DNA from: a virus
Strand: one strand, 5' to 3'
Length of the DNA: 36,379 nucleotides
Virus record (IMG/VR): IMGVR_UViG_3300044990_001054
Span: 1-36,379 of that record
Under the pieces are notes generated by a model. The model did not search any database. It worked only from the letters and a program-made list of their open reading frames with translations, and was not told the origin of the DNA. Of the stretch, positions 714 through 36,379 are shown one piece after another (within the stretch, counting starts at the first letter, position 1; each line of letters begins with the position of its first letter). The position numbers and the translations under genes were made by a program.

Positions 714-1523
714 TCACTTTGCGCGCATCGCCACCAACGCACCCGCGTCGGCAACGGCGCTGTCGTAACTCGTAACACTATCGACTAACCCGGCGGCCAT
801 CGCATCAGCCCCGAGGAATTCTTGACCCTCCATCGTTTCGTCCGACACGCCCGGGCGGGACGCTTTCACGTCCGCGCGGAACATGCCGCCGATCTTGTCC
901 ACCAGCCCCTGCACGCGCTTGATCATGGATTCGGGAACCGGCGTGCCAAACGCGCCGTCGCCCTTGTTCGCGCCGGACTTGATCAGGTACATCTTGATCC
1001 CGAGGCTGTCGTAGTACTTGGACACGTCCCCGATGAGCCCGTAACACCCGATTGACCCGACCATCGCCATGCGCGAGCAGTACACCGCAGACGCCCCGCA
1101 GCAGGCCCAGTAGGCAGCGGAGCACATCAGCCCGCCCGTGTAGGCGATGACCGGCTTGACGGCGGCGGCGGCCCGCACGGTGGCAGCGGCCTCATCCACG
1201 CCAAGGGTCTGCCCGCCAGGGCTGTCAACGTCGATCAGGATGGCGCTGATGGCGGGGTCGTTGGCGGCATCCTCCACCACTTCTGAAAACTGACTGGTTG
1301 AGCACGCCCCGCATTCGATGTCTATCTCGTCCGGGTGGTTCATCATCACGCCGTTCAGCTGGATGATGGCGAGGCCATCCGATACCGCGCCCTTGATCAT
1401 CTGGCGCTTTAGGTTGTCCGAGCTGCGCCGGTCGTCTTCCATTGCCAGGAACGAATGCAGGGCGGCGGGACGGATGGCCCACGGTTCGCTAAGGCGGTCC
1501 TGGATGCGGACTTCGTTTTTCAC
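714..1523 (-). CDS. Prohead protease, S49 (SppA/gpC-like) family
   Basis: This 269-residue protein resembles phage S49 serine peptidases (lambda gpC), which mature the prohead. Visible landmarks are IDVDSPGGQTLG at 97-108, the probable nucleophile Ser135 in GLMCSAAYWA, GSIGCYG at 156-162, and Lys187 in KSGANKGDGAF. The Ser-to-Lys distance of 52 residues fits the Ser/Lys dyad of short SppA proteins. It starts at GTG 1523, sharing GTGA with the stop of the portal gene, so the two are translationally coupled. Lambda C contains a nested scaffold (Nu3). Here the scaffold seems to be the separate coiled-coil gene two positions downstream. Confidence 0.9.
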   Translation of the reverse strand: MKNEVRIQDRLSEPWAIRPAALHSFLAMEDDRRSSDNLKRQMIKGAVSDGLAIIQLNGVMMNHPDEIDIECGACSTSQFSEVVEDAANDPAISAILIDVDSPGGQTLGVDEAAATVRAAAAVKPVIAYTGGLMCSAAYWACCGASAVYCSRMAMVGSIGCYGLIGDVSKYYDSLGIKMYLIKSGANKGDGAFGTPVPESMIKRVQGLVDKIGGMFRADVKASRPGVSDETMEGQEFLGADAMAAGLVDSVTSYDSAVADAGALVAMRAK

Positions 1524-19542: not shown

Positions 19543-19911
19543 ATGAAAGCTGCTTGTATCGCTGTGATGCTGTTTTGTGGGTGTGCGTCTTTTGGTTCAG
19601 GTATAGAACGGCTTGGCGGAGGTGTGGGTGGGAGCGCCCCGTATGTGTCCGTTGATGAAACACGCATCGACGCACAAATCGAGCGCGTGTTCACTAACGC
19701 GTTCATCTCATCTGATTGGAATTTTATGCACGGGGGCCGGCAACACGTCAGGATCATGGTCAAAGGGAAAGACGCCAGTAAACTGGCCGTTGGAGAGAGA
19801 TGGGCGGGCCACGTCACAAAAGGCGGCACATTCAAAGATATAGAGGGTCAGCCTTACCGGGTCTATTTCGCCGTCCCTCCTCCGACCAATCCGCCGAGCA
19901 AACGAAAATAA
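19543..19911 (+). CDS. Small predicted lipoprotein encoded between repressor and integrase
   Basis: The product has 122 residues. It starts with MKAACIAVMLFCGC, a short charged start, a hydrophobic core and Cys in a lipobox-like LFCGC, followed by Ala-Ser, so it is probably lipidated and exported. The mature part contains a beta-rich stretch (DWNFMHGGRQHVRIMVKGKD) and a Pro-rich end. AAGGGGAAAGGCC precedes the ATG. A TATACT at 19517-19522 could be a -10 for it. Its stop overlaps the integrase ATG (TAATG), so the two are coupled. Expression from a lysogen would make it a candidate lysogenic-conversion or superinfection-exclusion factor. Confidence 0.65.
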   Translation: MKAACIAVMLFCGCASFGSGIERLGGGVGGSAPYVSVDETRIDAQIERVFTNAFISSDWNFMHGGRQHVRIMVKGKDASKLAVGERWAGHVTKGGTFKDIEGQPYRVYFAVPPPTNPPSKRK

Positions 19912-21047
19912 TGCCACGCCCACTCCTAAAGCCAATAAACTACGGATCCACGCCCGGCACCATCCGCCCGGTGCCGCGGGGCGGGTGGGATGCCTACGTC
20001 CGGGTAGATGGCAAGCGGTACCGGATCCGCAAAGACACGCTGGAGGAGGCCAAGGCCTGGGTCATCATGACCGAGGAGACCGCCGGCGCCCACCGCCCGC
20101 CGCTCTCCGCAAGCCAGGCGGCCGACGCCGTGCGGGCGATCGCGCTTCTCCCCGCCGGCTACACCCTTACCGATGCCGCCCGCGCCCTGGCCGCCAGCTC
20201 GGCGCCGCCGGATCTGCCCGCGGTTGACATGGCGGCTGCCGCCGAGCGGTTCATCGAGGAGCGCCGCGGCTTCCTGGCCGACGCCACCATGCGAAACTAC
20301 CGCGCCCACACCCGCCGGCTGGCCGCTCTGGCCAAATGCGACGTGAAAGACGTATCCCCCGAGACGATCAAGTCCCTCCTGGTGGGCAAGGCGGGCGGGA
20401 CCCGCAACAGCATCCTGCGCAGCCTCTCCGCCTTTTTCAGCTGGGCCCAGGACGAGGGCATGGTCAAGGACTCCCCGCTGGCCAAGATCAAAATGGCTCT
20501 CACCAAGGACGCGGAGATCCACGTGCTGACGGTGGAACAGGCCCGGCACCTGATAGCCACAGCCGCGCGCGTCCGGCCCCAGCTGGTGCCGTACCTGGCC
20601 CTATCCCTGTTCGCCGGGATCCGGCCCGAGGAACTCCAGCGCCTGCCCGGTTCAAAGCTGGGGCGCGACTACATCCTGATCGATGGCGACGTGGCCAAGA
20701 AGCGCCGGCGCCGCACGATCCAGATCCAGCCGAACCTGCGCGCCTGGCTGGATGCGTTCCCGCCGCCGGCCGCCGAGTTGGTCTACTGGGGGCGCCGCGC
20801 CTTCCGGGCCGTGCTGCTCGAGTGGGGTGGGGTGTGGCACAACGACGTTTGCCGGCACACCTTCGGGACCATGCGCTGGGAACAGATCAAGGACCCGATC
20901 CAGGTCTCGGCCGAGATGGGCAACTCCCCGGACGTTTTGATGACGGCATACCGGGCGCTGGTGCACCCAGGGGAGGGGGCTCGGTTCTTCGATATCCAGC
21001 CCCAATGCGAGCGCTTTTGTCCAACGGTTGTCCAACGCTCGTCATAA
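19911..21047 (+). CDS. int: Tyrosine-recombinase integrase
   Basis: The product has 378 residues. An arm-binding-like N-terminus (GGWDAYVRVDGKRYRIRKDT) is followed by a core-binding SAM-like domain (about 104-190) and the catalytic domain. Catalytic candidates are Arg238 (FAGIRPEE), Lys263, Arg315 in NDVCRHTFGT and the nucleophile Tyr347 (VLMTAYRALV). Asp312 occupies the place of the usual first His of the HxxR motif. It starts at ATG 19911, overlapping the lipoprotein stop. The attP core lies 29 bp beyond its stop, and one of the 19-bp repeats lies inside its last codons. Confidence 0.93.
   Translation: MPRPLLKPINYGSTPGTIRPVPRGGWDAYVRVDGKRYRIRKDTLEEAKAWVIMTEETAGAHRPPLSASQAADAVRAIALLPAGYTLTDAARALAASSAPPDLPAVDMAAAAERFIEERRGFLADATMRNYRAHTRRLAALAKCDVKDVSPETIKSLLVGKAGGTRNSILRSLSAFFSWAQDEGMVKDSPLAKIKMALTKDAEIHVLTVEQARHLIATAARVRPQLVPYLALSLFAGIRPEELQRLPGSKLGRDYILIDGDVAKKRRRRTIQIQPNLRAWLDAFPPPAAELVYWGRRAFRAVLLEWGGVWHNDVCRHTFGTMRWEQIKDPIQVSAEMGNSPDVLMTAYRALVHPGEGARFFDIQPQCERFCPTVVQRSS
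21019..21037. repeat. attP arm repeat, left copy
   Basis: GTCCAACGGTTGTCCAACG occurs here and again, identical and in the same orientation, at 21258-21276, 239 bp away. Each copy contains two GTCCAACG units 11 bp apart, about one helical turn. The pair flanks the attP core, as arm-type integrase sites do. This copy overlaps the 3' end of the integrase gene. Confidence 0.7.
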
Positions 21048-21050
21048 ATA

Positions 21051-21088
21051 GCGCATTTGCAATGGGGCTTGCACCATTCGTAATGCGC
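21051..21088. repeat. Inverted repeat spanning the probable crossover region
   Basis: GCGCATT at 21051-21057 pairs with AATGCGC at 21082-21088, and AATGG at 21061-21065 pairs with CCATT at 21074-21078, leaving an 8-base centre. The right arm is the anticodon-arm part of the tRNA fragment. Inverted core-type sites around a short overlap are expected for tyrosine recombinases. Confidence 0.55.
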
Positions 21089-21121
21089 AGGTCGTCGGTT
21101 CGATCCCGACCGTTGGCTCCA
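21076..21121 (+). other. attP: attP core: 3' half of a tRNA-Thr(CGT) gene
   Basis: The 46 bases from ATTCGTAATGCGC to GTTGGCTCCA form the 3' half of a tRNA: anticodon loop TTCGTAA (anticodon CGT), the 3' anticodon stem, a T-arm GTCGG-TTCGATC-CCGAC, the acceptor strand CGTTGGC, a discriminator T and CCA. The 5' half is absent, and the 5' anticodon stem that would pair (GCGCA) is replaced by CACCA. Phages that insert into tRNA genes carry this piece to restore the gene. E. coli thrW, the P22 target, has the same ATTCGTAATGCG anticodon segment. Confidence 0.85.
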
Positions 21122-21286: not shown

Positions 21287-22561
21287 TCACGGCCGGCACC
21301 TGGTGAACTGCCATTGCATCACGGGCGGGCGCGGCAGGACCGTCCTCGAGCGGGCGGTGATCACATCGTTGGTCCCGCCCACGAATGCCGGCAGGTCCAG
21401 CAGTTCCTGGATCAAGGGCGTGTCGGCGCCGTCGAATGCGAGTCGGGCCAGATAGCCGGTTGCGACGCCAGTTGCCGTCACAGAGTAAACCGAGCCCGTG
21501 AAATATGCGAAGTTGGTGGGAGCGAAAGCGTCCTGCGCGCTCGAGATGCCTCCGGTCGTGGCGATGCTCAGATATATCGTGCAGACCGCCCCGGTGGCCA
21601 TGTGAAACACGGGCACGATGTTGGTGGCCGAACGCCGCTCGATTGCGGACGCGCCGAGCCCTGACGCCTCGACGAGCGCGCCCCTCCGGTATCCGTCACC
21701 TTCGTCGAAAAAGAGCAGGCGGAGCCCGCTGCGCGCCCGGTAGACGGTCAACTCGGAAGCGATCAGCCCGGCGGCCACGGACACGGGCGCAGTCGTATAG
21801 GCCACGTCAAAGGCGGCGGTCTTGCGAGCGGGTGTGTAGCCGGATAGCAGATCGAGGTTGTTCGACGCATACCACGCGGGCGGATTTGTGAACAGCCCTG
21901 GTCCTTCAGAGTGAAAAAACCAGTAGGAGATCCCCGGCAGACCATAGAAAAGCAAATCGTCACGTTGCCCCGGAACGCCCCAGTTCGTCGGCACAAGCGG
22001 CTCGGGGTTGTATGCCAGATAGCTACCGGCGTCACCCCACAGGCGGCCGCCCTCAAGCTCCGTGTGGCCCAGGCAGTTGGACATGAGGCGCAACGCGCGG
22101 AACGCCTCCCAAAGGGTGTTCGTCATGACGTACAGTCCGACCTCGGCGCCGTAGACCGGCGCGCCCGTCCACCCGACAGTCCAGAGCGGCCGCCCGTCGC
22201 CCGGACCGACACCGGCAGCGATGAACAGGTTGGAGACCGTCCACGGCGTTGCGCTGGTGGAGGTGTAGGACTGCAGGTAGGACGGCGCCAGCGCTTCAAC
22301 CTCGTCGAGGACGGCCTGCATCTGCGCGTGCGTAGGCTGGTTCGGCAGGTTGGTGAACGTGCTGAAACTCCACCCGTTTGAATCGCCGGAATGGGGCGTG
22401 GCCGCCAGCGCTGCCCTCCGCTCGTTGATCCCCTCCAGCAGCTCGGCCACGTCGTCCGCTGTCACGTAGAGGCCGGGGGCGGCCGGGAGATAGTACAGCG
22501 CCGCCCCGCCCGTCAGGAGCGCCGCAGCGGCCAGGCCATAGGCATAGCGGCGGATCGTCAC
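21287..22561 (-). CDS. Last late gene; exported or membrane-anchored protein, possible receptor-binding protein
   Basis: From the GTG at 22561, overlapping the upstream stop as GTGA, the product has 424 residues. Residues 5-27 are a hydrophobic signal or anchor (YAYGLAAAALLTGGAALYYL). The rest is rich in Thr, Tyr, Trp and Gly (GISYWFFHSEGPGLFTNPPA) with many predicted strands, like extracellular or fibre proteins. It is the last gene of the late operon before attP, where tail fibres, receptor-binding proteins or conversion genes are common. I recognise no domain, and the function is open. Confidence 0.65.
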   Translation of the reverse strand: MTIRRYAYGLAAAALLTGGAALYYLPAAPGLYVTADDVAELLEGINERRAALAATPHSGDSNGWSFSTFTNLPNQPTHAQMQAVLDEVEALAPSYLQSYTSTSATPWTVSNLFIAAGVGPGDGRPLWTVGWTGAPVYGAEVGLYVMTNTLWEAFRALRLMSNCLGHTELEGGRLWGDAGSYLAYNPEPLVPTNWGVPGQRDDLLFYGLPGISYWFFHSEGPGLFTNPPAWYASNNLDLLSGYTPARKTAAFDVAYTTAPVSVAAGLIASELTVYRARSGLRLLFFDEGDGYRRGALVEASGLGASAIERRSATNIVPVFHMATGAVCTIYLSIATTGGISSAQDAFAPTNFAYFTGSVYSVTATGVATGYLARLAFDGADTPLIQELLDLPAFVGGTNDVITARSRTVLPRPPVMQWQFTRCRP

Positions 22562-23121
22562 GGCGCCCTCGGCGGGCCGAAGTTGGCCGGGACGTCGAGG
22601 CGGCCGGACGCGTGCTGGGTGAAGACCCGCGTGCATGGTGTCACGATCGTGTCCGCCTCAGCCGTGACCCGCCATACGCTGAGCGGGAACCGCTTGACCA
22701 GCCCGGCCACGTCGTCAGTCGGGTAAACGTCGTCCTCGGTAAACAGCACGGTCACCACGCCGGTGGCCAGCTCGGCGTTGACGTACAGCCAGTAGTCCCC
22801 CGGATCCGTGGGGTAGGCAGCCAGGTAGGGCGTCCCGGCAAACGCCTTGACGTGGGTCTGCCAGGCCTCGTCCAGCACTTGGTTTGCCCAGGTGATTGGC
22901 CCGCCGGTGACTTCCACGCCGGATGCCGTTATGTCCTGGAACCAGGCCTGCTCGTCACCGTCATCAGACTGCGGCCGCGGGACCTGGTGGTACATGGTGC
23001 CGACGCCGGGGATCTTCTCGGCCCGGATGGTGGCGGAGCTTAGCGGCTCAAGATCCCGCACATCGCCCCGGATCGCCTCGCACCACAGCGACATAAACCC
23101 CTTACGCGTCCACGCTCTCAT
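22558..23121 (-). CDS. Late-region protein of unknown function
   Basis: The product has 187 residues, starting at the ATG at 23121 which overlaps the upstream stop. It contains PGDYWLYVNAELATGVVTVL and FPLSVWRVTAEADTIVTPCT, which look like beta strands, and no signal peptide or membrane span. It lies in a tightly overlapping group (ATGA and GTGA junctions) with the DUF1353-like protein and the exported last gene. It may be a distal tail or assembly protein. No family is recognised. Confidence 0.6.
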   Translation of the reverse strand: MRAWTRKGFMSLWCEAIRGDVRDLEPLSSATIRAEKIPGVGTMYHQVPRPQSDDGDEQAWFQDITASGVEVTGGPITWANQVLDEAWQTHVKAFAGTPYLAAYPTDPGDYWLYVNAELATGVVTVLFTEDDVYPTDDVAGLVKRFPLSVWRVTAEADTIVTPCTRVFTQHASGRLDVPANFGPPRAP

Positions 23122-23675
23122 CCCACCCCCATCGGTACGATGTCATCGACATCCGGCGGCTCCGGTGGCCCGATGGGCTCCGGGAGCTTCCCGGCCTCGG
23201 TGTAGCCGCACGCCCAGCCGAACATCCGGACGGCCGCCCAGATTGCGCCGGCCTTGAACCGGCCGCGGGGCCGCTCAGTGCAGCGGCTCATGGTGTGCAG
23301 CAGCGCGTCCGCCTCGGATCTGGTGACCGGCGTCGGCCGCCAGACGGTCTCCCCGAAGGCCTTGACCCACAGCCACCCGATGTCGTAAACGCGGTCGTGG
23401 AAGGCGTATTCGATCCCCTCCTTGCGGACCAGGCGCTGGCCGGAGAGGGGTATGGATCCGAAGTTGAACCGGAAGGACTGGCCCGGCAGGCACGGCCGGA
23501 TCTGGTCCCCGTTGTCCTGGACGAAGGTGCAGGGCGTGTCCGGGTGCAGGGTGAAGGTGAAGTCCTGGGACTCGTGCCAGCGGAGGACCTTACCGTTCTC
23601 GGGCGGCAGCAGCCGAGCCTCCCAGCCTTCCCCCTCCCGCTCGTTTAGGAAGTAGCCACGGGCGCGCGGGTTCAC
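23118..23675 (-). CDS. DUF1353-like phage protein
   Basis: The 185-residue product fits the DUF1353 pattern: FNFGSIPLSGQRLVRKEGIE, then the conserved FHDRVYDIGW, then TRSEADALLHTMSR and AGAIWAAVRMFGW near 150-162. DUF1353 proteins are common in phage late regions, often near lysis or tail-fibre genes, and their role is unknown. The start is GTG at 23675, overlapping the previous stop. The C-terminal 25 residues are Pro/Asp-rich. Confidence 0.7.
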   Translation of the reverse strand: MNPRARGYFLNEREGEGWEARLLPPENGKVLRWHESQDFTFTLHPDTPCTFVQDNGDQIRPCLPGQSFRFNFGSIPLSGQRLVRKEGIEYAFHDRVYDIGWLWVKAFGETVWRPTPVTRSEADALLHTMSRCTERPRGRFKAGAIWAAVRMFGWACGYTEAGKLPEPIGPPEPPDVDDIVPMGVG

Positions 23676-24040
23676 GGCTGCACCGCATATGCGCGCGCCG
23701 GGTGCTCAGATGCGGCCGGAGCTTTCGATGCCGCGTGCTTTTCCCACAGCTTGAACGCGCTGTAGCAGATCCCGCCGCCGACCAGGTTGGACGCCACGGT
23801 GGTAACGATAATCACTCGGGCGAACGCCTTGACCGTCTGAAACGGGATGTAGCCCATGGCGTACAGCGCCTGGATGGCCTCCACCACGTCAAAGTGGATG
23901 TGCCCGCACGGCGTGCGCTTATCTGACCGTTTGTGCTCGGCAACCTGTTCGACGGCAACCCGCGCGCGCTGCTCGATCTGCGACATGGCCGAGTCGTTGG
24001 CGGCCTGCGCCGTGTTCGCTAAAATGTCGATCAGTCCCAT
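23672..24040 (-). CDS. Small membrane protein, possible holin
   Basis: From the ATG at 24040 the product has 122 residues. A helical N-terminal half (DSAMSQIEQRARVAVEQVAE) is followed by one hydrophobic segment, RVIIVTTVASNLVGGGICYS, at about 77-96, and a charged, Ala-rich tail. A GGGGGTGGTC ribosome-binding region precedes it. Membrane proteins of this size in the distal late region can be holins, but with only one clear membrane span and no adjacent endolysin this remains a guess. HTPCGHI-like residues (RTPCGHIHFD) could bind metal. Confidence 0.6.
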   Translation of the reverse strand: MGLIDILANTAQAANDSAMSQIEQRARVAVEQVAEHKRSDKRTPCGHIHFDVVEAIQALYAMGYIPFQTVKAFARVIIVTTVASNLVGGGICYSAFKLWEKHAASKAPAASEHPARAYAVQP

Positions 24041-24050
24041 GACCACCCCC

Positions 24051-25110: not shown

Positions 25111-25488
25111 TTAGTTCAGTGCCGCCTTGATCTGTGGGCTGCCGCCCCCGCTGATCGCATTGCTTACCGACCCCGTCCCCTCGCCACCGGCCGACCGCCA
25201 GAAGACGCCGTTCAGGACCGTGATCTTTTCCGGCGCCGGGTCCAGCCCCATGATGTAGACGTTGGTCCGGCAACCGCAGAAAAGGGCCCCCGCCGTCAAC
25301 GCTGCGGCTAGGCCTGGGAGGGGCAGGCCACGCTGACGGGCGGGGGCGAAAATAGGGGGAAACGGCGAACGGGTGACCCGACAAGCGGAGGGTACAAAGC
25401 CCCGGCCGGTTCCCCAGGTGGAAACCACGAACGCACCCGCGCCGTGGGCTGGACTGGTTTTGCTCGACGTTTCCAAAGTGTTCACCAT
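25111..25488 (-). CDS. Small protein with internal lipobox-like segment
   Basis: The frame from ATG 25488 encodes 125 residues and overlaps the end of the upstream gene by 7 bp. Residues from about 55 to 74 form a hydrophobic stretch ending LTAGALFCGCRTN, a lipoprotein-signal look-alike, but it is far from the only ATG start. No convincing internal start was found. If a non-standard start near residue 45 is used, the product would be a lipoprotein of about 75 residues, possibly a spanin-like outer-membrane piece. The C-terminus is Gly/Ser-rich. Confidence in the exact start is low. Confidence 0.45.
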   Translation of the reverse strand: MVNTLETSSKTSPAHGAGAFVVSTWGTGRGFVPSACRVTRSPFPPIFAPARQRGLPLPGLAAALTAGALFCGCRTNVYIMGLDPAPEKITVLNGVFWRSAGGEGTGSVSNAISGGGSPQIKAALN

Positions 25489-26744
25489 GTCACGTTCACC
25501 AATCCGTTGGATGACCCCGACTTAATCCGGAGCCCGTTGGACCAGTACAGCCAGGTGTCTCCCGACAACTCGAAGCGCGGCGCCTGGACGGGAACGCTGA
25601 ATTTAGCCCGTGCGGTTGCCTGAACGGCGTTGCTCACGGACACGCGCCAGAACGCCCGGTTGCCGGCAAGGGTGTTGCTGGCGGTGATGGACATGTAGCC
25701 GGCCGCTGCATCGTTCGTCGACAAGGGGCGGGCTGTCGTCCAGCCGCCTGTCATCAGGTTCGTGCTGGTCTGGAGCCGGAAGACGCCGGCCAGCCCATTG
25801 GTGGTGAATACCAGCGTGGATATGGTGCCGGTGCAGTTGGTTATGAGCCAGGGGTACGGGTCCATGGCCTCGATTGCCAGCACGGGCGACACTGCGTCGC
25901 TCTCGTGGGCCAGGGTCAGGTATCCGTTTGGCTTGTATGACCAGGTGAACCGCTGTTGGATGCTGACCCCGTCATCGATGCGTGTGCCGGCCCGGACGAT
26001 GAGCGGGGACAGCGCGGGGTGTCCCGACCACAGCGAAACGGCGTCCTGGACAACCGCCTCATAGTAGCCCTTGGACATGGCCAAATAGTCCGTCTGATTT
26101 GTTTTCCCCTGCGCGGCCGCCGGATGCTTCACGAGCAGCGACATCCCGCGGAGGTCATTGGTGTTGCCGACCAGGTCCCGATCAGCATACACGTCGATCG
26201 AGAACGCTTCGATGTAGCCCTCGATCGTGGGCGGGACACCGGGGTAATTCAACTGCTGCATCCGTCCGGTGAGGGTGGCGGTCCGGCCGTCAGGCGCGAT
26301 TCGGGTCGTGAGCGTGTAATCACGGCCGGTGTCAGTCGTGCGAACGGCGTAGATTCGCTGGTCTTCGAATAGCAGTGTGATGGTGACCACACCCTCGTTG
26401 GTGCTGGCAACGGTGGCCGGGGTGAACAGCGAGATCAGGCCATTCGTCCAGTAGGCCGTCCCGGACAAGCCGACCGTGTAGTCCTTCTCCTGGATGGCCT
26501 GGATGGGGCTGGTCCGGATCGTGGTGCGCGCGTCGAATAGCGTGCGGCCGCCGCTGGTCAATCCATCGCCGATCTTGATTTGGATCGGTTCCCCGTCAGG
26601 AAACACCCCGACCGCCATTTCCCCGTCTTCCAACACAGGCGTTTCCGTGGGGCCGACTTTAGGGACGAACAACTGCGCCGCGCTTACCAGGCACGCGGAG
26701 CTGCAGATCATGGCAAAGACCGCTATAGTGGCTGTTTTCCGCAT
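25482..26744 (-). CDS. Exported fibre-like protein
   Basis: The product has 420 residues. A Sec signal (MRKTATIAVFAMICSSACLV) with likely cleavage near VSA-A starts the protein. The segment just after it, LEDGEMAVGVFPDGEPIQIK then IGDGLTSGG, resembles the N-terminal domain of phage tail-fibre and tropism proteins, where an IKIGDG motif is common. A later segment, FRLQTSTNLMTGGWTTARPL to AFWRVSVSN, matches a beta-sandwich repeat frequent in secreted proteins of Verrucomicrobiota-like bacteria. The combination suggests a fibre built from host-type modules. It lies beside the protease-bearing fibre. Confidence 0.7.
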   Translation of the reverse strand: MRKTATIAVFAMICSSACLVSAAQLFVPKVGPTETPVLEDGEMAVGVFPDGEPIQIKIGDGLTSGGRTLFDARTTIRTSPIQAIQEKDYTVGLSGTAYWTNGLISLFTPATVASTNEGVVTITLLFEDQRIYAVRTTDTGRDYTLTTRIAPDGRTATLTGRMQQLNYPGVPPTIEGYIEAFSIDVYADRDLVGNTNDLRGMSLLVKHPAAAQGKTNQTDYLAMSKGYYEAVVQDAVSLWSGHPALSPLIVRAGTRIDDGVSIQQRFTWSYKPNGYLTLAHESDAVSPVLAIEAMDPYPWLITNCTGTISTLVFTTNGLAGVFRLQTSTNLMTGGWTTARPLSTNDAAAGYMSITASNTLAGNRAFWRVSVSNAVQATARAKFSVPVQAPRFELSGDTWLYWSNGLRIKSGSSNGLVNVTW

Positions 26745-26747
26745 GGC

Positions 26748-28805
26748 TTAAAACTCCGTGTAAGGGGTGACGTCAAGGTAGGAAAGGGTCTCAGGATCGC
26801 CCCAAGCCGCGATCGCCGCCTGGATCTCCTCCAGATACGAGTGGACGGACGGGCCGCTGGTCGGGTAGTAGAGGCAGAACAGCAGCACGAAGTCCATGCC
26901 AGTGCTGAACAGGACCGGCTGGGAAGAATCGCCGCTGACCGGGTAGTGCCGGAAGAGGGCGCGCCAGGCAATCCGCTCGGCCGCCTTCCACCAGCTGATC
27001 CCGGTGTATCCGCGCTCGTTCCAGCCTTCCGATCCGCCGACTACCAACTGAAATTCATGGGCCCCGAAGTGGACCTCCCCGCAGGCCAGCGGGATCTCCC
27101 TGATGCCGGTCGGGAGCGCGGCGGCCGGATTCGCCAGCACCTTGGCCACGGGCACGGGGATCTCGGTGTCCAGGCGGATCATGGCGATGTCCGCCGCGAC
27201 AAGGACTTCCGCGTCGACAACCGCTGTCCAGACGCCGTTTGTCGAATCCACCCATTTGACGGTATCGCCTACCTGGGGCCTGAACGATGCATGGGCGGCC
27301 GTGATAGCGTGCCGGGGCGTGATCAGGACGCCGCCGCCATAGTATGGTTGCGCCCGACTGTTCCAGGCCGCCACACACTCCGGGGCAGGGCGGATCCAGA
27401 GGTTGGTGGACCTGGTGAATGCAGTGCCGTTGGTGTTGTACGCGCTGAACGTCCGCATGGTCGCCCCGGTGGTCCCGACGCCGGCAGCGACATTCGAGAT
27501 GATCGCCGCCCGCAGGCTGCCCTCGGCGCCGTCCCAGTACCGGTCGATGGCCATGCCTTCCGTTCTCATCACCAGCACGTTGGTGCGGCCGAACGTGGCC
27601 GCCGTGACGGCTGCCGTGACCACGCCGTCGGCCAGGTGCGTCAGGTATCCGTTCGAGGAAACGGAAGCCCTCTCCGCCGGCTCGACGGTGAAGTCCAGAT
27701 CGAAGAACGAATGCTGGTCGGAGATCTGCGCCACGCGGTCGTACCGCACATTATTGAATCCCTGGCGCTCAAGGACCTGGTCCAGGTTGGTCCGGTACGT
27801 GGTCGAGTCAGGGCACGAGGTTGGGGACAACGCCCACACCAGGTTGAACCATTCCGGATTTCGCCAGGTGCCAGGGGAAACGACGGACGGCCAACTCGAG
27901 CGGGTTTCGCCAGCCCACCGCAAATAGCGGAAGTCCATCTCGAATATGTCGTTGTGGAGGTTCGGGTGCGCTGGCTCGTTGGCCAGGCGTAAAATGTTGG
28001 TAGGGCCCATGCTGATTACCCACGTCCCGTTCGCATTGTTCCAGAAAATCCCCTTCATGGTCTCCGGGTCGTCTGTAGCATTGCTGCCGAGGACAATCCG
28101 ACGAGGGAAAGTAACGTCCTCGTTTTCATCGGGCTTGAGGTAAAGGTTCGTCGAATGGTCGCCCCAGGCCTCGACGACGTCTACCCGGCCGCTGACCGCC
28201 AGCACCCCGGAGCGCGCAGCGGTGTCAGACGAGCCGGCCGCGGCAAGCACATAAGCAGCATCCGCCCGGGCTCGGGCCACCGCGTCGACCATGTTGCTCG
28301 GGATCTGCCAGGGGCCGACGTAGCTGGTCCCGGTGTCTCTCTGTTGAACGTGGGCCATGGACCGGTGCACAACGCCGACCGACGTGTTGGTGACCCCGCT
28401 CCCGTCCGTCTGGAAAAGAGTGATGAACGACCAGTAGTTCGATGCCGGCATGGCCGCCCACTGGGGCGGGACCGTGAAGCGCACCCGGCCGGTGGCCGCG
28501 TAGATCGTACCCGTGGCCCACAGGTAGACGTTGGAGTTGCCCGGGTCATCACTCCGATCGGCCACAATGGACCAGATAGCCGTCAGGTTTGTCTGACCGG
28601 ACCAGTCTGCGGCGTTGGTGCCGGAGGCCGTGCTCCAGTGGTCGAACACCAGGCTTTCCCCCTGGTACCAACGGAGCATGACGGACGAGGGGACCTCCGC
28701 CTTTGCCAGCGCGGTGGTGGCCGTCAGATACCGGATGTTCAACTGCCCGAAGCAGGACCCGGCCACAAGGATCAGAACCGCCCAAAGATTAGCCCGTACC
28801 GCCAT
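26748..28805 (-). CDS. Fibre-like protein with signal peptide and C-terminal trypsin-like protease
   Basis: The product has 685 residues from the second of two tandem ATGs (28808 or 28805), which GGGGGAG precedes. Residues 2-20 are a signal peptide (VRANLWAVLILVAGSCFG). The middle is fibre-like and includes EAWGDHSTNLYLKPDENED, similar to the WGxH...YL motif of phage fibres. The last about 200 residues form a chymotrypsin-fold protease: GGGVLITPRHAITAAHASF with His505, VAADIAMIRLD with Asp539, and SGDSSQPVLF with Ser627, where GDSG is GDSS. The order and spacing fit an S1-type triad. It may cut host surface proteins or process virion proteins. Confidence 0.8.
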   Translation of the reverse strand: MAVRANLWAVLILVAGSCFGQLNIRYLTATTALAKAEVPSSVMLRWYQGESLVFDHWSTASGTNAADWSGQTNLTAIWSIVADRSDDPGNSNVYLWATGTIYAATGRVRFTVPPQWAAMPASNYWSFITLFQTDGSGVTNTSVGVVHRSMAHVQQRDTGTSYVGPWQIPSNMVDAVARARADAAYVLAAAGSSDTAARSGVLAVSGRVDVVEAWGDHSTNLYLKPDENEDVTFPRRIVLGSNATDDPETMKGIFWNNANGTWVISMGPTNILRLANEPAHPNLHNDIFEMDFRYLRWAGETRSSWPSVVSPGTWRNPEWFNLVWALSPTSCPDSTTYRTNLDQVLERQGFNNVRYDRVAQISDQHSFFDLDFTVEPAERASVSSNGYLTHLADGVVTAAVTAATFGRTNVLVMRTEGMAIDRYWDGAEGSLRAAIISNVAAGVGTTGATMRTFSAYNTNGTAFTRSTNLWIRPAPECVAAWNSRAQPYYGGGVLITPRHAITAAHASFRPQVGDTVKWVDSTNGVWTAVVDAEVLVAADIAMIRLDTEIPVPVAKVLANPAAALPTGIREIPLACGEVHFGAHEFQLVVGGSEGWNERGYTGISWWKAAERIAWRALFRHYPVSGDSSQPVLFSTGMDFVLLFCLYYPTSGPSVHSYLEEIQAAIAAWGDPETLSYLDVTPYTEF

Positions 28806-29610
28806 CATACATCTCCCCCTTCCATTTATACGCGCCAAGCCACTGCTCGACCAGGGTCCACGACCTGTTGACCACGTCCGAGTCAGGCGGGAGCCAAAGC
28901 CACTCATACGGGACCAGCTTCCAGGCGCCGGTCGTGTCAACGTCCCGGAACTTCGGCTCCTTGATCGGGGCGGAGATGCCCGCGAACGGCGTCACTTTCC
29001 ACTGGTTCTCGTATGTCAGGTATGCGTCGATGTTCGATCGGTTCGCCCAGGTCGTCGTTTTTGTGATCGTGTGATTCGCCCGCATGGCCCCCGTGTACCC
29101 GGCAGCCTTCAACGCCGCGTACTTCTTGAAAGCAGCCGGGAGCGCGCTCGAAGCCATCACCACGTCGAGCTTCCCCTGGGAGATGAGCTTATCGATCAGG
29201 TTCAACCGCTGCGCCCGGGCCTGGTTATCCGGTGACGTCGGATCCCCCTCAGTCCCCCATGTTCGGATCCGCGCCAGCTCAATCTCGACAGTGCTCTTGC
29301 TGGTCGACCAGCGGACCGTGATCGGCGCAACGGCACCGCCCTCGCCCCCGCCGCCGCCCGCCCCGCCGGATCCGGCCTGAGTCCCGAAGGTGGCGGTCAA
29401 GACACATGTGGACCCGTCCGGTGAGGGCGTTATCGTACGGGCGCCCGCCGCTTTCAACTTGGCGTAAGTGGCGGCCAGATCAGGGTACGCGCAGCCCCAC
29501 ACTTCCGTGGTCACCTCTCCTCGGTCCGCGTCCCAGCTGGTATACCGATGCCGCATGACAGATTCGGTGACACCTGCTGCGCGGTAGACGATGATGGGGG
29601 AAACTGGCAT
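28789..29610 (-). CDS. Tail protein immediately after the tape measure, unknown family
   Basis: The product has 273 residues, and its ATG at 29610 abuts the tape-measure stop, with GGAGGATTAG just before it. Residues 1-80 form one domain; a Gly-rich linker (GSGGAGGGGGEGG) at about 80-92 leads to a second domain containing ITVRWSTSKSTVEIELARIR and WANRSNIDAYLTYENQW. In long-tailed phages the gene after the tape measure usually encodes the distal tail or tail-tip protein. I see no Dit or gpM signature, so the assignment is positional. It has no signal peptide, unlike the next genes. Confidence 0.6.
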   Translation of the reverse strand: MPVSPIIVYRAAGVTESVMRHRYTSWDADRGEVTTEVWGCAYPDLAATYAKLKAAGARTITPSPDGSTCVLTATFGTQAGSGGAGGGGGEGGAVAPITVRWSTSKSTVEIELARIRTWGTEGDPTSPDNQARAQRLNLIDKLISQGKLDVVMASSALPAAFKKYAALKAAGYTGAMRANHTITKTTTWANRSNIDAYLTYENQWKVTPFAGISAPIKEPKFRDVDTTGAWKLVPYEWLWLPPDSDVVNRSWTLVEQWLGAYKWKGEMYDGGTG

Positions 29611-31164
29611 CTAATCCTCCAGGGCTTTCGCAGCCTTCTCGGTATTCGTCTTGATGGCGGCCAGTTTCTCGTTGCTGTTCTTGGCGATGTCCGCCGCCTT
29701 CTGCTGGGCCTCCGCCATGCTCCGTGCATAATTGCCTGTCCCGCCCATGACGCCGCCAAGCGCCTCAATCCCGGTCAACCGGGGGGTCCCCACGGTGATG
29801 GCGTCCATGTCCCGCTGCCGGCGCTTCAATTCGCCCGACACTTCCTGTTCCATCCTGGTGTTCAGCGCGGCCTTCTTGTCGTCCATGGTGGCGTCCCGCT
29901 GGAACCGCCGCTCGAGCTCTTTGACCAGCTCCTTGTAGCGGAAAATCATGTCGGAGATCTGCTTGAGGCTGAACATGTCGGCATTGTCTGCCAGCGCCTT
30001 GTATATCTGGCTGACTGATGTGGTCATGTCGTTGTTGGACATCCCCTCCATTTCCGCCTGGATCGACTTGCGGAACTGCTCCTCGCCTTCGGACCCGAAG
30101 AACGCATCCAGCACACCCTGCCGCCGCTTCGCAGCGTCCTCCTGGGCTTTCTGCCGACGCTCGTCCGTTTCCTTTTTCTTGGCAGCGGCGATCGACGCCT
30201 GCACCGCCGCCTGCCGCTCCGTTTCGATTTGATCGTCGGTTTTACCGGTGGCAGCGGCGGGCCCATCCCCGAAAACGTCTCGGTCCATCCAAGCCAGGAA
30301 CCTATCAGGGGCGCTGACAATCGAGCCGGCGATACGCCGGCCCATATTCCGCATCGCCCCGCCTGCGCTGGAGAAGTCACCCTGGGCTTTGGCCAGCCTA
30401 CGGTTTGCCTCCTCGAGGTCCTTATACTTTTCGAGGAGCGGATCCAGCCCGTTCCTTGCCAGATCCTGGAACGCATCCCGGGCCTCGGAAGCGGAGTTCC
30501 GGCCGAGCACGTCATTCAGCAACCCGATCCCGGTGGCCGCCCCGTCTGTCTTCTGCAGCAGCTCCTGGAGCGCCTTCGTCGGGAGCATGGCCGCCCACTT
30601 CTCGCCATCGATTCCCGCGGCCGCCAGCTTCTCGATTGCGCCCTTTGCGCCATCGCCGCCTCCGGCAATCGTGTCCTGGAAGTCCCGGACCTTCTGCAGC
30701 CATGTGAGCACCTTCTCCCCGCTTCCCCCAAAAGATTCGGCGGAGGCCTGTAATGCCACCAGCTGACCTGCGGGGATCCCGAGCGCCTTGGCGTAGTCCT
30801 CGATAGCGTCTGCCGCCGCCATGGATGCCTGGGTAAACGCCGTCACCCTATTTACGGCGAAGGCCAGGCCGACGGCCGGCGCCAACACCTTCAGACTCCC
30901 GGCCAGGCCCATCACGCTCGAGTCCGCCGCGGTGATCTGCCCGCCGGTCTGCCCAAGCACCCCGTTCATCTTCCGGAGCCCCTCGACGAGGGTGGGCATC
31001 TTCTCGGAGTCGCCAAGGGTCCGGGCCAGGTCCAGCTGCTGGGCCCGGGCCTTCATGTCGTTCACGGCCTTCATGACGCCCTGAGACGCCTTGCCGAGTT
31101 CGGTCTGCAGCCCGGACGAATCGCCGTTTATCTTTACATTGATGGTTGGATCGTTGCCCGCCAC
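29611..31164 (-). CDS. Tail tape measure protein
   Basis: The 517-residue protein sets tail length and is ejected ahead of DNA. The start (INVKINGDSSGLQTELGKAS) is typical of tape measures. A hydrophobic helical segment follows (VMGLAGSLKVLAPAVGLAFA near 85-104), then long amphipathic helices rich in Ala, Lys, Glu and Gln (QAAVQASIAAAKKKETDERR) up to the end. The start is GTG at 31164 after GGAGGGCACC. It is short for the family (lambda gpH has 853 residues), predicting a tail well shorter than lambda's if it is a siphovirus. Confidence 0.87.
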   Translation of the reverse strand: MAGNDPTINVKINGDSSGLQTELGKASQGVMKAVNDMKARAQQLDLARTLGDSEKMPTLVEGLRKMNGVLGQTGGQITAADSSVMGLAGSLKVLAPAVGLAFAVNRVTAFTQASMAAADAIEDYAKALGIPAGQLVALQASAESFGGSGEKVLTWLQKVRDFQDTIAGGGDGAKGAIEKLAAAGIDGEKWAAMLPTKALQELLQKTDGAATGIGLLNDVLGRNSASEARDAFQDLARNGLDPLLEKYKDLEEANRRLAKAQGDFSSAGGAMRNMGRRIAGSIVSAPDRFLAWMDRDVFGDGPAAATGKTDDQIETERQAAVQASIAAAKKKETDERRQKAQEDAAKRRQGVLDAFFGSEGEEQFRKSIQAEMEGMSNNDMTTSVSQIYKALADNADMFSLKQISDMIFRYKELVKELERRFQRDATMDDKKAALNTRMEQEVSGELKRRQRDMDAITVGTPRLTGIEALGGVMGGTGNYARSMAEAQQKAADIAKNSNEKLAAIKTNTEKAAKALED

Positions 31165-31182: not shown

Positions 31183-31614
31183 TTATCGGGTGATCAAAAA
31201 GTACTGCATGCCGAGATCGTTTGTAGGACCCGCGAAATAGACGGAGGCGCCCGGGGCCAGCGGGCCCTGGAAGACCTCTCCCGGCGCCAGCCGGACCACC
31301 GGCAGGATCGCCCCGACGTTTGTGGGTCCCATGTCCACCCAGTAGTTGGTGGCCGTGTTCTTGGCCCAGAGGTAGCCCGGCGCCGTCACGCTCCCGACGG
31401 GAAGGGCCACGGGCGTGACGCCAACGGAGAGGATGCCGGCGGCGAACCGGGGGGTGGCGTTGGTCATGTCCAGGACCACGTCCCCGCTTTTCTGGGACTG
31501 CACCACGGATCCGCTCGAGATGGCCAGGCTGGAGTTGACGGTGATCTCATCGGCCGCAAACGCAACGGCGGCCAGGTGGACGGCGATTACCAGGAAACGG
31601 GATTTAATTGACAC
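31183..31614 (-). CDS. Small exported protein between chaperone and tape measure
   Basis: The product has 143 residues from the GTG at 31614 (GGAGGAGACCC upstream). It starts with a Sec signal (MSIKSRFLVIAVHLAAVAFA, cleavage near FAA-D). The mature part is beta-rich: ITVNSSLAISSGSVVQSQK, VTAPGYLWAKNTATNYWVD, and RLAPGEVFQGPLAPGASVYF. The same MGPTN sequence occurs here and in the protease-bearing fibre. An exported protein in the middle of the tail gene cluster is unexpected. It overlaps the chaperone-position gene by 11 bp, so it is co-translated with tail proteins. Confidence 0.7.
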   Translation of the reverse strand: MSIKSRFLVIAVHLAAVAFAADEITVNSSLAISSGSVVQSQKSGDVVLDMTNATPRFAAGILSVGVTPVALPVGSVTAPGYLWAKNTATNYWVDMGPTNVGAILPVVRLAPGEVFQGPLAPGASVYFAGPTNDLGMQYFLITR

Positions 31615-35973: not shown

Positions 35974-36379
35974 CTACTTCGCCTGCGCTTCGAAGATCTG
36001 CTTCCGGAGCGCTTCCAGTTTGACGGGATCGGTTTCAGCCATGTACGCCGCTTCCAGCTTCGCCAGGGTCATCGGCTCGCCTTCGGAGGCGGGCTTCGTC
36101 CCCTGGGGAACCACGGGGGCGCCGCCAGCGTCGGCCGCCTTGAACGACGGATCGGCGAGCTTCGCTTCGAGGTTCTTGACCTTGGCGGTCGAGTCCTCGA
36201 GCGCCTTGGCGGTGACGCCGTGCTTGCCCTGCTCGGCGGTCAGATCGGCGGTGGCCTTCTCGGCCGTGGCCTTGAAGGTGTCACGCTCGGCAGTCAGCGC
36301 CTTGACGCTGGCTTCCAGGGCGGTCACCTTGCCGGACTCGGCGGTCCGCTTGGCGGTCAGGTCGGCCACGGTCGTGGTC
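35974..36379 (-). CDS. Putative capsid scaffold, C-terminal part (gene crosses the contig join)
   Basis: This is the main part of the gene that begins at 198 and crosses the join. The stop is TAG at 35976-35974. The reading frame stays open to the right edge because 36220-36379 repeats the left end. The C-terminus contains SEGEPMTLAKLEAAYMAETD followed by VKLEALRKQIFEAQAK, a charged helix of the kind that binds capsid subunits in scaffold proteins. A Pro/Gly linker (APVVPQGTKPASEG) separates it from the coiled-coil part. Confidence 0.65.
   Translation of the reverse strand, partial: TTTVADLTAKRTAESGKVTALEASVKALTAERDTFKATAEKATADLTAEQGKHGVTAKALEDSTAKVKNLEAKLADPSFKAADAGGAPVVPQGTKPASEGEPMTLAKLEAAYMAETDPVKLEALRKQIFEAQAK
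36220..36379. repeat. Terminal overlap, right copy
   Basis: This is the second copy of bases 1-160, with C at 36347 where the left copy has A at 128. Removing one copy gives a circle of about 36,219 bp with an intact coiled-coil gene. Confidence 0.9.

Follow-up and report, generated by a model that had tools for sequence, protein, structure and literature searches.

Most enzymes known from the tails of phages act on polysaccharide or peptidoglycan. In tailspike depolymerases, a modular tail protein bears the enzyme at its end, and the enzyme is swapped between phages, an arrangement shared by the protein described here; the depolymerases cleave glycans, whereas the domain at issue has a predicted protein-cleaving fold. 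Peptidase S74, the intramolecular chaperone of endosialidase, likewise sits at the C-terminus of tail fibres, although its fold and catalytic residues are unrelated to those of S1 proteases. Certain tailed phages carry a trypsin-like annotation, and the likeness lies in that annotation; because tblastn missed these phages whether the query was the window protein, the protease domain or any of four family members, they are not demonstrably of the same family. UOF78081.1, annotated as a hypothetical protein of Podoviridae sp. ct3Et533 (MW202510, Manatee Spring), does belong to the same protease family and is likewise encoded in a tail module, its gene following those of internal virion proteins and standing between genes for a beta-helix "rhamnogalacturonan lyase" and an FN3 protein. 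Unlike the window protein, it lacks a signal peptide, carries a different N-terminal domain and comes from a podovirus. A literature search found no paper about S1 proteases in virions or about tail fibres with signal peptides, and the virion-associated S1-fold family reported here appears to be undescribed, though the fold is of a known kind. With moderate confidence, we read the window protein as part of the tail tip or of a fibre in a phage that is siphovirus-like and probably temperate; the protein would display an active chymotrypsin-fold endopeptidase on the virion and act on the host surface.

The window, that is, the whole stretch of 36,379 nucleotides analysed here, is a 36.4-kb phage record with a 160-bp direct repeat at its ends (1-160 and 36220-36379; 159 of 160 positions identical), and because the repeats lie at both termini the record is probably a complete genome. 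A PHROGs search recognised portal, terminase, major capsid protein, a head maturation protease (714..1523, minus strand; phrog_53, 2e-54) that is separate from the S1-fold gene, and a tape measure protein (29611..31164, minus strand; phrog_2276, 3.9e-7). The late genes point leftwards. Within the tail module, the protease gene comes after the tape measure gene, with one open reading frame between them for a 273-aa tail-module protein (28789..29610, minus strand), which overlaps the start of the protease gene and had no family match in the PHROGs search. Directly upstream of the tape measure gene is a gene for a 143-aa protein with a signal peptide (31183..31614, minus strand). The gene that follows the protease gene (25482..26744, minus strand) encodes 420 aa, comprising a signal peptide and then a motif that looks fibre-anchor-like by eye (EDGEMAVGVFPDGEPIQIKIGDG); a Pfam search of this protein gave no match. 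Downstream of the fibre genes, 25111-25488 (minus strand, internal start) may encode a lipoprotein (LFCGC) and has a counterpart in the sister phage L109. A putative lysis region occupies 21287-24046 (minus strand), with a membrane protein (23672-24046) and a membrane-anchored 449-aa protein; no recognisable endolysin was seen among the genes that were scanned.

An integrase-like ORF, read as a tyrosine recombinase from its C-terminal HTFGTMRW...Y, lies on the plus strand (19800..21047), followed by 45 bases corresponding to the 3' part of a tRNA-Thr(CGT) (21077..21121, plus strand), a putative attP core. On the strength of these two features the phage is probably temperate. Of 388 Verrucomicrobiota genomes, 7 contain the attP core with one mismatch, against none of 246 in the Planctomycetota group and none of 248 in the Bacteroidota group. 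Its occurrence in the first phylum and absence from the two others sampled make a Verrucomicrobiota host likely, not proven, and a bacterium of that phylum is thus the probable host. In the same 388 Verrucomicrobiota genomes, 2 had relatives of the terminase, at about 35% identity. For the 420-aa protein, a search with its C-terminal domain did not discriminate between hosts (2/145 versus 1/149).

The protease gene (26748..28805, minus strand; GGGGGAG precedes the ATG at 28805, and the stop is at 26748-26750) encodes a 685-aa protein in which a signal peptide, an N-terminal module, a middle region and an S1-fold protease domain follow one another. The Sec-type signal peptide comprises residues 1-21 (MAVRANLWAVLILVAGSCFGQ; 28743..28805) and, like those of two other window genes, was called with a simple home-made scorer. 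The N-terminal module spans residues 22-208 (28182..28742), the middle region residues 209-455 (27441..28181; dN/dS 0.12 against L109) and the S1/PA-type protease domain, delimited by profile and structure prediction, residues 456-685 (26751..27440). Read from the translation, the middle region contains WGDHS (residues 214-218; 28152..28166), which we take to be a tail-fibre-type motif. A full-length model from 24 sequences was poor outside the protease, with a strand-rich middle of low confidence (pLDDT mostly 30-50); the WGDHS...YL motif, the gene position and domain swapping suggest that the middle is fibre-like. The candidate triad consists of His505 (TAAH, 502-505; 27291..27293), Asp539 (DIAM, 539-542; 27189..27191) and Ser627 (GDSS, 625-628; 26925..26927), which align with chymotrypsin His57, Asp102 and Ser195. 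The sequence-only reading from which this analysis started had named a signal peptide, the WGDHS motif and these three residues; residues 1-21 do score as Sec-like, the motif is present, the residue numbers are exact, and the strand, on which that reading was silent, is minus.

Several lines of evidence bear on the fold of the C-terminal domain. A profile built from 47 relatives, with the window and its 90%-identical sister left out, matched the window domain at E=1.1e-33 among 350 ORFs, with no second match among these window ORFs and none among reversed ORFs. An AlphaFold model of the domain reached pTM 0.81 and pLDDT 77, with an uncertain stretch at about domain residues 119-155. Foldseek comparison of this model with the PDB gave 715 matches at E<=1e-3 (best E 3.8e-8, TM ~0.6), the best 50 of which were all S1-type, plasmin, chymotrypsin, elastase and S. 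griseus trypsin among them. When the family profile was compared with PDB sequences, the matches listed were S1 proteases only, chymotrypsinogen C at the top (4e-4), and in the alignments shown the family His, Asp and Ser line up with H57, D102 and S195. Sequence profile and structure prediction thus agree on the chymotrypsin-type C-terminus that had been proposed from the letters, and the double barrel is present in the predicted structure. That the domain is a chymotrypsin-fold protease is a well-supported prediction.

With peptidase family S1 (PA clan), the domain shares the predicted double barrel, the His-Asp-Ser order, the GDS motif and a C-terminal helix. It differs in lacking the IVGG motif by which zymogens of subfamily S1A (animal trypsins and chymotrypsins) are activated through a new N-terminal Ile16, which was sought at the domain start and is absent, homology beginning downstream of such a site. 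The Cys beside the catalytic His is also missing (TAAHA, not TAAHC; family consensus AAHY), and with it the Cys42-Cys58 disulfide feature (AAHC). In our own alignment position 189 is not Asp; Arg/Lys specificity is therefore not implied, and "trypsin-like" describes the fold only. Identity of the window member is only 20-30% with the rest of the family and about 15% with S1 chains in the PDB; by itself it drew chance-level matches only from PDB sequences. It gave no match to PF00089 (Trypsin) over the curated cut-off, a model that matches 7 of 46 relatives, weakly (best 5e-5); HtrA/Trypsin_2 (PF13365) had no match in the window record, although 12 of 14 control genomes gave matches. The whole 685-aa protein matched no Pfam family, Peptidase S74 included, and no NCBIfam or PHROGs model matched the window protease. 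Genome annotation misses the domain because it is absent from NCBIfam and PHROGs and because Pfam touches few members weakly.

Whether a domain of this fold retains its chemistry was judged from conservation. His and Asp are present in 52 of 52 family lineages and Ser in all 51 complete copies, the search pattern behind the underlying 77 loci having excluded positions His505, Asp539 and Ser627. Comparison with L109 gives a dN/dS of 0.08 for the domain, which is under purifying selection. At the active site, GDSSQP supplies the equivalents of Gly193, Asp194, Ser195 and Pro198, with Gly196 replaced by Ser. GDSG is found in 49 of 52 family members, and the window's GDSS, together with its divergent long branch, could be taken to mean that the domain is inactive and serves as a trypsin-fold binding module. 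Set against this are the complete triad in some 50 lineages, the low dN/dS, and the recurrence of GDSS in another member (L041); we therefore consider an inactive domain improbable. The conserved triad suggests that the domain is a catalytically active serine endopeptidase.

To retrieve the family, a degenerate DNA pattern encoding I[ST]PRH...AAH was used; it recovered unrelated phages carrying the same domain, and the profile was built from these. Searching viral contigs with this profile yielded 77 loci which, with one annotated record, reduce to 52 representatives below ~90% identity. The window is thus not a one-phage oddity; about 50 distinct lineages exist in uncultured viral contigs. 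Some contigs carry two or three copies (L023, L026, L035, L042, L088), and in L024 two protease domains stand in tandem within one protein. Among named phages, tblastn with the window protein, the protease domain and four family members found the domain in 1 of 50,697 records, where the protein is labelled "hypothetical protein". The earlier statement that such a protease is not common on a phage fibre therefore holds for named phages and fails for uncultured viruses. Genome contigs gave no match to the single window protein and 13 loci with the profile, three of which (L095, L099, L106) are phage-like by their N-termini and lie in MAGs. The cellular relatives are long secreted proteins of Kiritimatiellota, Akkermansiaceae, Patescibacteria and Bacteroidales, those of Patescibacteria having C-termini that look peptidoglycan-binding by eye. 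At 1e-6, the domain is matched in 38 of 289 Verrucomicrobiota genomes, some possibly through prophage copies. A tree built from 78 domains shows phage and cellular copies intermingled, with 10 changes, at least 3 of which are forced by the starred branches; it follows that the domain has moved between phages and cells more than once. The window copy forms a long branch of uncertain placement.

A link to the virion emerges most clearly from the relatives. In L083 and L076 the protease domain is joined within one protein to a baseplate wedge subunit (PF23786 above cut-off), in L037 to a T4 gp15-like tail sheath stabiliser (PF16724 above cut-off; L027 likewise by PHROG) and in L049 to the N-terminus of a long-tail-fibre distal subunit; the wedge and gp15 fusions were each found on several contigs. 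These fusions argue that the family is virion-borne. PHROGs adjoining the phage copies include tail fibre, virion structural, baseplate and hyaluronidase. In podovirus MW202510 (L018:6871-9424) and siphovirus L062 (L062:6799-10316) alike, a beta-helix "lyase" gene, the protease gene and an FN3-like gene directly follow one another in this order; their beta-helix proteins are related (48% over 60 aa, E 3e-7), a match that is the only one among 50,697 phage records. The sequence-only reading had placed the protease on a phage fibre, which is borne out at the level of the family by the wedge, gp15 and long-tail-fibre fusions; for the window protein itself, the same placement is suggested by gene position and module swapping.

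Module exchange is how tail fibres evolve, and the sister phages provide an example. L110 and L111 share the N-terminal module (residues ~22-208, 55-58% identity) and the preceding tail genes. Beyond that module, their proteins diverge from the window protein; that of L111, which is complete (446 aa), contains no protease. L109, by contrast, shares the middle (78%) and the protease (90%) and has a different N-terminal module. N- and C-terminal parts have thus been exchanged between relatives, as in tail fibres; no relatives of the N-terminal module other than L110 and L111 were found. Contamination by a host gene was considered as an origin of the protease gene and rejected, since the gene sits among the tail genes and its neighbours accompany it in L109 as well. 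The same comparison bears on a morphogenetic role, in which the protease would cut itself or other tail proteins during assembly in the manner of S74 fibre domains or head maturation proteases. A protease carried by a virion-type protein can cut what lies next to it, and the gp15 and baseplate wedge fusions of other phages put the domain at joints of the assembly. However, the phage has a head maturation protease of its own and no S74 match, and the very different positions of the protease among phages favour display. Moreover, L110 and L111 keep the module and the tail genes while the complete L111 protein is protease-free, so that the protease is dispensable for tail assembly. Taken together, a morphogenetic protease seems to us highly improbable.

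The signal peptide is harder to accommodate. To our knowledge, virion proteins of tailed phages assemble in the cytoplasm and are not expected to carry Sec signal peptides. In a study of diversified phage proteins, lacking a signal peptide counted as a sign of phage origin (PMC6199706), which makes the signal peptides in this tail region unusual. Sec-like N-termini were scored for three of the 35 window genes, each in the tail region and on the minus strand (26748-28805, 25482-26744 and 31183-31614), and for each a counterpart in the sister phages L109-L111 also starts signal-like, the signal sequences themselves being different. In the L111 counterpart of the protease protein (MTAAQVKLFAVSCLVASSCFAQ) the hydrophobic, Sec-like character is kept, and the mature part begins at the same point as in the window. 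The L109 protease protein has a different N-terminus, yet its start is signal-like by eye. The signal of the 420-aa protein is conserved in L109, and the L110 homologue of the 143-aa protein also has one; no signal-less homologue of the latter was found. Beyond the sister phages, signal peptides occur on the protease-flanking genes of L062 and on the FN3 gene of MW202510.

Because signal peptides on tail-region genes are unusual for tailed phages, a secreted, non-virion role is a serious rival. The protease would then be made late, exported by Sec and located in the periplasm or outside the cell, where it may aid lysis and release or degrade the matrix or receptors of neighbouring cells. That three genes of the region carry signals which the sister phages keep despite differing N-terminal modules speaks for such a role, as do the long secreted relatives in Verrucomicrobiota, Patescibacteria and Bacteroidales. 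On the other hand, N-terminal module swapping and a tail-module position are typical of virion fibres, other phages fuse the domain to tail components, and most phage relatives of the protease lack a signal peptide. We regard secretion as possible, though on balance unlikely.

A protein displayed on the virion is accordingly the reading that we favour. The N-terminal module would dock the protein to the tail tip, so that it rides on the virion, and the C-terminal protease, at the far end, would cut proteins of the host's surface or proteinaceous matrix as the phage adsorbs, much as tailspike depolymerases cut sugars. The signal peptide would imply Sec passage of the inner membrane before the protein meets the virion, or is released with it, at lysis; no precedent for Sec export before joining a virion was found. 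This reading is weakened by the Sec signal, the secreted cellular relatives, the divergent long-branch GDSS copy and the low-confidence model of the middle. Three roles had been offered at the outset (cleavage of host surface proteins during entry, activation of other tail proteins, and secretion from infected cells); they are inseparable by sequence, and we would rank entry first and secretion second. More tentatively, and with considerable doubt, we suggest that this lineage of Verrucomicrobiota phages makes its host-facing tail proteins, the protease included, as Sec-exported precursors; the periplasm may be where these are cleaved and folded and perhaps acquire disulfide bonds, and they would join virions only at or after lysis.

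For annotation, the alignment from the present analysis could yield a family model. That genes of the fibre region start with signal peptides poses the question of where the tails of such phages are completed; if Sec-exported precursors are indeed made, part of tail assembly would take place outside the cytoplasm. The tail-fused protease family suggests that these viruses cut proteins, besides sugars, when entering cells. If the protease is virion-borne, protein layers such as S-layers and surface or matrix proteins would be a barrier that phages also digest.
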